Below, piece after piece: positions 27,772 through 36,079 of a DNA stretch of 64,000 nt (its first letter is position 1; every line of letters starts with the position of its first letter). The DNA comes from Caldilineaceae bacterium. Its GTDB lineage: Bacteria; Chloroflexota; Anaerolineae; Caldilineales; Caldilineaceae. Position numbers and translations under genes: made by a program. Under the pieces are notes generated by a model. The model saw nothing but the letters and a program-made list of their open reading frames with translations. It did no database searches and had not been told where the DNA came from. The stretch is taken from positions 1 to 64,000 of the forward strand of contig JADLFO010000041.1 in assembly GCA_020845455.1 (NCBI GenBank), read 5' to 3'.

Positions 27772-28013
27772 GGGCTGCGGCCTCCCTGTATCCTGAACTC
27801 CGTCGCGATCCCATTGATCCACTGCCATCACTATGGCACGAACCGGCGCGCTTGGCAAGCCCGCCGTTAAGGGGAAGATAGGCTCGTACTGTCGCAGGAG
27901 CTTTGACCGTGCGCCGCGCCGGTGTTAGAATCGCAAGCCGGAGGGCGGTGTGATCGGCCCGAATGATTGGCCTGATGCTGGGCACGGTAGGAAGTAGGGC
28001 GAAAGGAACATCC

Positions 28014-29198
28014 ATGTCAGAAGCGCGGCGCACGATCTATATGGACCATTCGGCGACGACGCCCGTGCGCGCCGAGGTGCTGGAGGCGATGCAGCCTTAT
28101 TTTGCCGAGTTCTACGGCAACCCGTCCAGCATTCACAGCGTGGGCCGCCGCGCCGGGGTGGCGCTGGCACAGGCGCGGCGCACAATCGCCGAGGCAATCG
28201 GGGCCAAGCCGAGCGAGATCATCTTTACCGGCTGCGGCACTGAAGGTGACAACGCCGCGCTGCGCGGCATTGCGCTGGCGCGCCGCCAGGCCACGGGCGC
28301 TAAACGCATCATCACCCTGCCCATCGAACACAAGGCCGTGCTCTACACCGCCCAGGACTTGGCCGAGCATTTTGGTTTTGATCTGACGCTGGTTCCGGTG
28401 GACGGCGAGGGGCTGGTCTCGGTCGAGGCGTTGGCGGAGGCGCTGGGCGGCGGGACGGATGTGGCGGTGGTCAGTGTGATGTACGCCAACAACGAGGTCG
28501 GCGCCGTTCAGCCGGTGGCGGAGATCGGCGCGCTGTGCAAGGCTGCGGGCGTGCCTTTCCACACCGATGCGGTGCAGGCCGCGGGCAAGCTGCCGCTCAA
28601 TGTCGACGACCTCAACGTCGACGCCATGAGCACCAGCGCGCACAAGTTTTATGGGCCGAAGGGCGTCGGCTTTCTCTATTTGCGCGGCGGCACGCCCTAT
28701 CTGCCCTATATGACCGGCGGCAGCCATGAGGGCGGCCGGCGCGCCGGCACCGAAAATGTGCCCTTTATCGTCGGCATGGCGAAGGCGCTGCAATTGGTGG
28801 AGGCGGAGCGCGAGCAGGAGAACGCTCGGCTGCGCGTGCTGCGCGACCAGTTGATCGGGGGCATCCTCGAAAGCGTGGACGGGGCAATGCTGACCGGCAG
28901 CCGCACACAGCGGCTTGCCAGCCACGCCAGCTTTGTGATCCGCGGGGTTGAGGCCGAGGGAGTCTTGATCGCACTGGATTTGGCGGGCATCGCGGCCAGC
29001 AGCGGCAGCGCCTGCACCAGCGGTTCACACCGGCCCAGCCATGTGCTGGAGGCATTGGACGTGCCTGCCGTCGACGCCGTGGGCGGGCTGCGGCTGAGCT
29101 TGGGCCACAGCAACCGCCCGGAGGATGTAGACTATTTGCTGGCGCGTCTGCCGCAGATCGTCGGCCAGATCAAGGGGAGCGTGCCGGTCGAGCTATAG
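28014..29198 (+). CDS. Cysteine desulfurase (NifS/IscS family)
   Basis: This PLP enzyme takes sulfur from cysteine for Fe-S clusters or thio-tRNA, or selenium from selenocysteine. From ATG 28014 (AAAGGA upstream) the 394-residue protein has YMDHSATTPV, FTGCGTEGDNAAL, the PLP-lysine segment STSAHKFYGPKGVG, RRAGTENVPFIVG and the active-site Cys loop SSGSACTSGSHRPSHVLEAL. It is a class V group I enzyme. The NifU/IscU scaffold is not adjacent. selD lies about 2 kb away, so a selenium-supply role is possible but unproven. Confidence 0.93.
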   Translation: MSEARRTIYMDHSATTPVRAEVLEAMQPYFAEFYGNPSSIHSVGRRAGVALAQARRTIAEAIGAKPSEIIFTGCGTEGDNAALRGIALARRQATGAKRIITLPIEHKAVLYTAQDLAEHFGFDLTLVPVDGEGLVSVEALAEALGGGTDVAVVSVMYANNEVGAVQPVAEIGALCKAAGVPFHTDAVQAAGKLPLNVDDLNVDAMSTSAHKFYGPKGVGFLYLRGGTPYLPYMTGGSHEGGRRAGTENVPFIVGMAKALQLVEAEREQENARLRVLRDQLIGGILESVDGAMLTGSRTQRLASHASFVIRGVEAEGVLIALDLAGIAASSGSACTSGSHRPSHVLEALDVPAVDAVGGLRLSLGHSNRPEDVDYLLARLPQIVGQIKGSVPVEL

Positions 29199-31163: not shown

Positions 31164-32267
31164 CTAGATCACCTCGATCCCCGGCGTGGGGATGACTTCG
31201 CCGATGGCCCAGACGGGCTGTCCGGCGTCGGCGCAGGCGCTTTCGAAGGTCGTCTCCATGGCCGGGGGCACGGCTATCAACAGCCCGCCGCTGGTTTCCG
31301 CCTCCCACAGCAGGCTGCGCTGGGCGCTGGTCACCTGGGGCGCAAAGCGCACCTGCGCGCCATAGGCTTCGGGGTTGCGGCGGCTGCCCTGGGTCAGATA
31401 GCCGGAGGCGATGTAGTCCCAGACGCCGGGCAGGGCTGGGATATCGGCGGCGCACATGCGGAAGCCTGCTCCGTTTTCGCGTGCCGCAGCCAGCGCCATC
31501 TCGGCGGCGTGGCCGAGCAAGCCGTAGCCGGTGATGTCGGTGGCGCTGCGCACCTGGGCGGTCTGGGCGGCGCGGGCGGCGGCGCGGTTGAGCCGCAGCA
31601 TCGAGGCGATGGCGGCGTCGAGATGGCGCACGTCGAGGTACACTTTGCCTTGGGCGCGGCGCTGGGCTGTGCTCTCCGCCGGGCCGGTCTGTTTGGCTGC
31701 GGTGGTGATGATGCCCGTGCCGAGCGGCTTGGTCAGGTAGAGCCGGTCGCCGGGGCGCGCCCCGCCCTTGCGCAGGATGCGCTGGGGATCGACGACGCCG
31801 GTGACGCTCAATCCGTAGAAGGGTTCGGGGCTGGTGATGGTGTGTCCGCCAGTGATGGGGGCGCCGGCCTCGCGTACCTTGGCTGCGCCGCCCGCAAAGA
31901 TTTGAGCCACGGTCTCGGCAGGGAGGTCGGCGGGGAAACCGGCAATGTTGAGGCAAAACAGGACATCGCCGCCCATGGCATAGACATCGCTCATGGCGTT
32001 GGCCGCGGCCACGGCCCCAAAGGTCCAGGGGTCGTCGACCACCGGCGTGAAGAAATCGGTGGTCTTGATGAGCGCGCGCGTTTCGTCGAGTTGGAAGACG
32101 GCGGCGTCGTCCGGTTCGCCCAACCCAACCAGCACCTCGGGATATTCGGTTGCCGGGAAAAACCCGGCCAGTTGTCGCACGACCTGCGACAGCGTCCCTG
32201 CCGGGAGCTTAGACGCTCAACCGGCGCAGGCGACGCGGGCCGTCAAAGGCAGTGGCTGTTCGCTCAT
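31164..32267 (-). CDS. selD: Selenide, water dikinase with selenocysteine encoded by TGA at codon 17
   Basis: SelD makes selenophosphate from selenide and ATP for selenocysteine synthesis. From ATG 32267, nine bases after AAGGA, the frame reads MSEQPLPLTARVACAG, TGA (32219-32217), then ASKLPAGTLSQVVRQLAGFF and continues to the stop at 31164. The TGA is codon 17 and the following Lys is residue 20, exactly the catalytic Cys/Sec17 and Lys20 of SelD. Downstream motifs include DDAAVF, the metal/ATP segments TTDFFTPVVDDPW and ITGGHTI, and DITGYGLLGHAAEMA. Full length with Sec is 367 residues, normal for the family. A start at GTG 32180 would lose the active site. Confidence 0.93.
32191..32217 (-). 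promoter_or_regulatory. SECIS-like hairpin after the selD TGA
   Basis: Starting at the A of the TGA, AGCGTC pairs with GACGCT and an inner TCCC/GGGA stem closes a GGCA loop; the exact inner pairing alternatives compete. Bacterial SECIS elements sit directly 3' of the UGA in the coding region and are bound by SelB. Position and size fit, but SECIS sequence is poorly conserved. Confidence 0.55.
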
Positions 32268-32270
32268 CGC

Positions 32271-32300
32271 TCTCGATCCTTGATATCTCGATCCTTGATA
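32271..32300. repeat. Tandem 15-bp duplication containing the selD Shine-Dalgarno
   Basis: TCTCGATCCTTGATA occurs twice, 32271-32285 and 32286-32300, with no mismatch. On the minus strand each copy carries AAGGA, so the selD leader has two potential ribosome-binding sites, the nearer being correctly spaced from ATG 32267. Confidence 0.85.
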
Positions 32301-32314
32301 GGTGTGTCGCAAAA

Positions 32315-32495
32315 GGGTGCATTTCACCCTGTTCACGCCGTGGTGCGCAGCACCGGAGCCTGCCCTGAGCCGGGCGAAGGGTCTGCGGTGAAGGGTCTCT
32401 CTGGGGGACGCACCAGAGCAGACGCAGAGAGATGTTTCGCGCCACTTGTGGCGCCGGCTCAGCATGACAATCCGCCCCGAACGTGAAATGCACCC
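32315..32495. mobile_element. MITE-like segment with 13-bp terminal inverted repeats
   Basis: GGGTGCATTTCAC (32315-32327) and its exact complement GTGAAATGCACCC (32483-32495) bound 181 bp without a gene. CGCAAAA directly precedes the left end and recurs two bases after the right end, possibly a target-site duplication. The interior contains GCCTGCCCTGAGCCGGGCGA, reminiscent of dispersed repeats in Chloroflexota genomes. Transposition is inferred from structure only. Confidence 0.5.
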
Positions 32496-34711: not shown

Positions 34712-36079
34712 GTGAACGCATCCGAAAGCCATCACCCGACCGCAGGCCCGGTTCAGCCAGAGCCGGATCAGGATAAAGCGGCGCGTGAGGCGGAGGCGGG
34801 CAGCTTTTTTCGCTATATGGCGGAGTATGTCGGCTTCACCCCTGCCGACGCCGCGCTGATCCGCCAGACCCAGCCGATCCTCGCCAAATACCTGCCGGAG
34901 ATCGTCGGCGACTTCTATACTCATCTCCTGCGCTACCCGCTCACGCGCCGTCTCTTCTTGCTGCCCGACGGCACGCTCAACGAGGCCTATCTGACGTTGC
35001 GCATGCGCCATCTCTCCAATTTCTGGCTGCGGACGGCGGAGGGCGTCTATGACGATGCCTATGCCGGCTATGTCGACTATGTGGGGCGGGCGCATACATC
35101 GCGCGGGGCCGACCCGACTATCTATGTGCCGGAGCGCTATGTGATCGGCCAGGTGGGGATGATTCAACATGCCATCAGCCGGGCGGTCAGCAACGAGCTG
35201 CGCGACCAGGACGACGAGTTGGAATTCCGCGCGGTCGAGGCGTGGGACAAGCTGATGATGGTGCTGCTGGAGATGTTGGCGCGCGCCTATGGGCATGAGC
35301 GCGAACCGGAGGCGGATGGCGCGCCTGTGCCGGTGGATGCCGATTGGGTGCATGCGCTGGCAGACCAAGCGATCACCTTAGAACATGGCGCTGCAGAACA
35401 TGGCGCTGCCCCGGCGCAGCCGCCGCGCCGGGTGGCTGTCGCTACGGCCGGGGAGATCCCCGACGGGCAGCGCAAGATCGTCGCGGTCGACGGCCTGTCG
35501 ATCGGCGTGTTCCACCACCAGGGGGAGTGGGTCGCGCTGCGCAACAGTTGCGTACACCAAGGCGGCCCGGTCGCAACCGGCGCGCTGGCCGGCGAGGTGC
35601 TGACCTGTCCCTGGCACGGCTATCAATACGACCTGCGTTCCGGTCGCTGCCTGACCGACCCGCACGCCGAGCTAGACCGGTATGCGGTGACGGTGGCGGG
35701 CGATACCGTCTTTGTGGATGTGCCACGGGGCGGCCCTGTGGCGGCCATTCAAGCGCAGGACGCGCCGGCGGCCCTTCAGTCGAATGAGTTCCGCGCCGCC
35801 GACTTGGCCGCGGGGCAGATGCTACCCCTGACCGTCGATGGGCGGAGCATCTTGGTCTACAACGTGGGCGGCACGTTTTACGCCACGGACGAGACCTGCA
35901 CCCATGCCCAGGGGCCGTTGAGCATAGGTCATCTGGACGGGAAGGTCATCACCTGCTTGCTGCACGGCTCCTGCTTTGACGTCACCACCGGCGCGGTAGT
36001 GTGCGCGCCGGCCACGCAACCGCTCAAGACCTACCCTGTGACCCTCGACGGCGACATCGGGCGAGTGACGATCGCGTAG
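34712..36079 (+). CDS. Protoglobin-Rieske-Rieske fusion protein
   Basis: The 455-residue soluble protein has three modules. Residues about 30-195 are a protoglobin-type heme domain: YVGRAHTSRGADP places the proximal His at 128, and the helices FFRYMAEYVGFTPADAALI and FRAVEAWDKLMMVLLEMLAR fit the fold. Residues about 240-338 are a Rieske domain with C280-x-H282 and C299-P-W-H302. Residues about 357-455 are a second Rieske with C396-x-H398 and C415-x-x-H418. All eight cluster ligands are present. No oxygenase catalytic domain follows. The design suggests electron transfer between [2Fe-2S] centres and a heme that binds O2, NO or CO. It starts at GTG 34712, shortly after AGGGAAGGGG. Confidence 0.88.
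   Translation: MNASESHHPTAGPVQPEPDQDKAAREAEAGSFFRYMAEYVGFTPADAALIRQTQPILAKYLPEIVGDFYTHLLRYPLTRRLFLLPDGTLNEAYLTLRMRHLSNFWLRTAEGVYDDAYAGYVDYVGRAHTSRGADPTIYVPERYVIGQVGMIQHAISRAVSNELRDQDDELEFRAVEAWDKLMMVLLEMLARAYGHEREPEADGAPVPVDADWVHALADQAITLEHGAAEHGAAPAQPPRRVAVATAGEIPDGQRKIVAVDGLSIGVFHHQGEWVALRNSCVHQGGPVATGALAGEVLTCPWHGYQYDLRSGRCLTDPHAELDRYAVTVAGDTVFVDVPRGGPVAAIQAQDAPAALQSNEFRAADLAAGQMLPLTVDGRSILVYNVGGTFYATDETCTHAQGPLSIGHLDGKVITCLLHGSCFDVTTGAVVCAPATQPLKTYPVTLDGDIGRVTIA

Follow-up and report, generated by a model that had tools for sequence, protein, structure and literature searches.

The question raised by this locus was whether a reading frame interrupted by a single in-frame TGA constitutes one gene, selD, whose product contains selenocysteine (Sec). 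In the window, that is, the whole stretch of 64,000 nucleotides that was analysed, the frame runs on the minus strand from an ATG at position 32267 through one TGA (32219–32217) to a TAG (31166–31164) and is otherwise open, giving a coding sequence (31164–32267) of 367 residues with a predicted Sec17. The initial annotation had extended the frame upstream of an apparent GTG start at 32180, through the TGA, to this ATG, and both the coordinates and the good AAGGA sequence noted in front of the ATG were found as described, the putative ribosome-binding site being located at 32276–32280 (minus strand), 9 nt upstream of ATG 32267. The predicted protein matched the SelD equivalog TIGR00476 with 344.5 bits (cut-off 125) over residues 8–336, and its alignment with E. 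coli SelD (PDB 3u0o) was end to end (E = 1.4e-66), in agreement with the normal full length that had been proposed. The TGA (32217–32219) is codon 17, the position of the catalytic Cys/Sec, and the AAG at 32208–32210 encodes Lys20, the conserved catalytic lysine of SelD; the assignment of both to the catalytic positions was borne out by the UASK motif and by the aligned homologous loci.

Conservation of codon 17, a comparison that the initial annotation had suggested, was analysed in 109 SelD loci in which this codon could be aligned; since the two source collections have some genomes in common, the number of independent genomes is below 109, and 94 distinct TGA sequences were left after removal of duplicates. 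Codon 17 was TGA in 102 of the 109 loci and a Cys codon in the other seven (TGC in four, TGT in three), with no other codon observed, and the residue three positions downstream was Lys in all aligned loci. A profile search of 61 genomes identified SelD over the cut-off in 53, and in 52 of these the main copy contained exactly one TGA. In each of the eight relatives compared, an ATG precedes the TGA by exactly 48 nt. The nearest named relatives of the selD gene were from metagenome-assembled genomes (MAGs) of Caldilineaceae and other Chloroflexota, and one of these loci, from another MAG (L057), encodes a SelD protein 94% identical to that of the window and has the same TGA at codon 17. Since this locus and the other TGA loci share the TGA, it is not a base-call accident of one assembly.

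Folding of the 50 nt from the UGA onwards predicted two adjacent hairpins, of which the first (32191–32217, minus strand; -11.4 kcal/mol) adjoins the TGA and the second, UGUCGCA-GGUCG-UGCGACA, occupies 32173–32191 (minus strand), with its loop at 32184–32180. Conservation of pairing was compared with a null in which codons were shuffled among sequences having the same amino acid, so that pairing beyond that imposed by the protein was measured; the second hairpin was scored on 32190–32174, to which 32191–32173 adds a seventh pair. Among 94 sequences, and uncorrected for relatedness, the paired fraction of the second hairpin was 0.887 vs 0.809 (sd 0.007) in the codon shuffles, and complete stems were found in 68 sequences vs 38.7 in the shuffles, none of 1000 shuffles reaching 68. 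The first or second base of the loop was a G in 93 of the 94 sequences. The second pair of the stem alternates between T-A (15) and G-C (3) within the family, a covariation in which the Arg codon (CGA or CGC) follows the Ser or Ala codon. At least five of six SECIS pairs were retained in 75 of the 94 TGA versions and in none of the seven Cys versions (Fisher p = 4e-5, uncorrected for relatedness). The first hairpin was rejected as the SECIS because its pairing across relatives was no better than the codon-shuffle null, and a third stem, further downstream, was likewise rejected, showing no pairing above that null. The initial annotation was thus correct that a hairpin follows the TGA, but there are two, and the predicted selD SECIS is the second (32191–32173), not the one adjoining the TGA.

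Scoring of the element, which had also been recommended, was carried out with a published rule for bacterial SECIS elements (PMC13188914), namely a loop of 3–9 nt, a stem of 4–16 bp, a G at loop position 1 or 2, a distance of 16–37 nt from the UGA, and a folding energy of at most -7.5 kcal/mol. The second hairpin agrees with this rule, having a loop of 5 nt with G first, a stem of 7 bp, a UGA-to-loop distance of 32 nt and an energy of -9.5 kcal/mol. Because the same rule finds a SECIS-like hairpin after approximately 13% of all the window's TGA triplets, the hairpin alone is weak evidence, and weight was placed on its conservation. In 19 of the 94 sequences, mostly from Rokubacteria with some from Anaerolineae, pairing was poor in the register of the second hairpin; these sequences may use a shifted hairpin. 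A search of the selD region against Rfam at a permissive threshold returned no SECIS family, only chance matches.

The initial annotation had reasoned that SelA, SelB and tRNA-Sec should be encoded elsewhere in the genome, and all three were found in the source assembly, a 5.74 Mb Caldilineaceae-like (Chloroflexota) MAG with 94.1% completeness and 5.7% estimated contamination. It contains one SelA (558 bits), one SelB (311 bits) and one tRNA-Sec with the anticodon TCA (66.4 bits, gathering threshold 47), so that the Sec-decoding trait, defined as selA, selB and selC in a genome, is represented in full, the three genes lying on separate contigs. The SelB is probably not contamination, because a counterpart in a genome of the same genus is 94% identical. 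A gene for a formate dehydrogenase alpha subunit (FdhA, 724 bits) was identified on contig C125 (L150:1429 onwards, plus strand), with an in-frame active-site TGA at codon 153 (NCSRA-U-HAPTVAGL) and an fdhF-like SECIS hairpin, GGUUGCC-GGUCU-GGCAGCC, with its loop 18 nt after the TGA. The genome would therefore be predicted to encode at least two selenoproteins, SelD and FdhA, with the SECIS loop sequence GGUC common to both. No match over the TIGR03167 cut-off for the selenouridine synthase gene ybbB/selU was found in this 94% complete assembly.

In another genome of the same genus (G003, 99% complete), SelD, SelA and tRNA-Sec were all without a match over the cut-off, as expected if the Sec trait was lost as a unit. 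Some other relative genomes were without one component of the Sec machinery, which may be explained by incompleteness. In eight genomes of one genus of the family (G010, G021, G025, G028, G031, G033, G035 and G036), SelA matched in two pieces, separated by a gap of approximately 70–100 bases near profile position 246 and lying in one frame, which suggests a short insertion in the SelA of that genus.

The TIGR00476 identity, the alternation of Sec and Cys at codon 17, the conserved SECIS, and the presence of SelA, SelB and tRNA-Sec in the assembly indicated that the window gene is almost certainly the selD gene of a Caldilineaceae-like bacterium and that its product is a predicted selenoprotein with Sec17. 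Alternatively, translation could stop at the TGA, or the TGA could reflect a sequencing error or a decaying pseudogene; the cell would then either make a truncated product from GTG 32180 or rely on a Cys-type SelD encoded on contig C168 of the same assembly. The Cys-type gene is indeed present, and a mechanical list of open reading frames does start selD at this GTG (32178–32180, minus strand), inside the SECIS hairpin, with codons 1–29 and the active site missing, as the initial annotation had anticipated of automated annotation. However, that form would be without the catalytic loop, and since the GTG includes the final base of the SECIS loop, within the conserved hairpin, it is not likely to be the start of selD. 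Furthermore, a second, Cys-type SelD was found in only one of the 61 genomes searched, the source assembly, and the TGA is retained, together with the ATG before it and the frame on either side, in Caldilineaceae and in more distant Chloroflexota, a conservation by which, as judged from the aligned loci, an error or a pseudogene is excluded in practice. This alternative as a whole was considered very improbable.

Reassignment of TGA to an ordinary amino acid throughout the genome, or unspecific readthrough, would also account for the open frame, and for that observation only. Codon reassignment was rejected because TGA terminates 11 of the 37 coding-like open reading frames of the window; the residue that replaces Sec is always Cys, and the assembly contains SelA, SelB and tRNA-Sec, leaving reassignment or readthrough the least credible of the readings considered. 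The two observations named by the initial annotation as contrary to a Sec-containing SelD, a genome without selA, selB and tRNA-Sec, or a TGA that is really TGC, were looked for and neither was found, the TGA recurring in the other MAG.

For the Sec-containing SelD, established knowledge of the pathway predicts actual Sec insertion and SelD enzyme activity as follows. Translation would start at ATG 32267, and SelB, attached to the hairpin that follows (loop GGUCG), would bring Sec-tRNA-Sec (anticodon UCA) to the UGA at codon 17, allowing translation to run on to the TAG at 31164. Sec17 and Lys20, the usual catalytic pair of SelD, would then function in the formation of selenophosphate from selenide and ATP, and SelA would use selenophosphate to produce more Sec-tRNA-Sec, both for SelD itself and for the Sec-containing formate dehydrogenase. 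The requirement of SelD for its own product is a self-dependent step already known for the SelD family.

Approximately 19% of the SelD genes in a prokaryote reference set have Sec, always at the codon-17 position (PMC4561486), and Sec-to-Cys conversions with remnant SECIS elements are on record (PMC1794560). The window gene is like the Sec-containing members of the SPS/SelD family in fold family, in the position of Sec, and in having a bacterial SECIS inside the coding sequence, and differs from them in lineage only; this family has long been known. Homology to E. coli SelD is full-length, but the E. coli enzyme has Cys at codon 17 and needs no SECIS, and family-level copies have a short insertion relative to it around residues 195–215. 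The selD SECIS shares with the fdhF-type bacterial SECIS (PMC13188914) a 5-nt loop with G first and a 7-bp stem, and fits the same rule, although its UGA-to-loop spacing of 32 nt is near the far end of the 16–37 range, whereas that of fdhA in the same genome is 18 nt. The analysis adds a well-supported lineage of Sec-containing SelD, comprising Caldilineaceae and relatives, with its SECIS identified. In these MAGs, annotation software that reads every UGA as a stop would drop the first 29 codons, that of the catalytic Sec among them.

The Cys-type SelD on contig C168 (L137:8959–10035, minus strand) comprises 358 residues with the motif GGCAAK. Its G+C content is low, approximately 48–50%, on an otherwise mixed contig, and its neighbours, to judge from their sequences, are an enolase-like gene and probably the transposase gene of an insertion sequence. 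Among 300 Chloroflexota genomes no close relative was found, the best match being 42% identical, and identity to plasmid sequences was below 40% among the matches listed. One partial copy of the adjoining insertion sequence, 89% identical over 331 bases, is present elsewhere in the assembly, which leans towards C168 belonging to the genome. The gene may have been transferred, or the contig may be mis-binned. It appears unlikely that the genome has two selenophosphate synthetases, its lineage's own Sec enzyme plus a Cys enzyme gained by horizontal transfer, which could start Sec synthesis with no prior need of Sec; if true, this genome would be a natural test of how a SelD that depends on itself is started up. 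The Cys-type gene, if real, would bear on how Sec synthesis starts and leaves the reading of the window selD unchanged.

Several other features were observed around selD. A 15-nt tandem duplication at 32271–32300 doubles the AAGGA ribosome-binding sequence. Immediately upstream, at 32315–32495, perfect 13-nt inverted repeats (GTGAAATGCACCC) flank 155 nt, and this segment resembles a small mobile element; neither the window nor the loci retrieved for comparison contained a second copy of it. A NifS-like cysteine desulfurase gene (27963–29198, plus strand) is located approximately 2 kb from selD on the opposite strand; its product matched TIGR03402 with 473 bits, under the cut-off of that model, and could be a putative selenium donor. 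The gene at 34712–36079 (plus strand) encodes a protein that combines, in one chain, a protoglobin domain with two Rieske-type matches.
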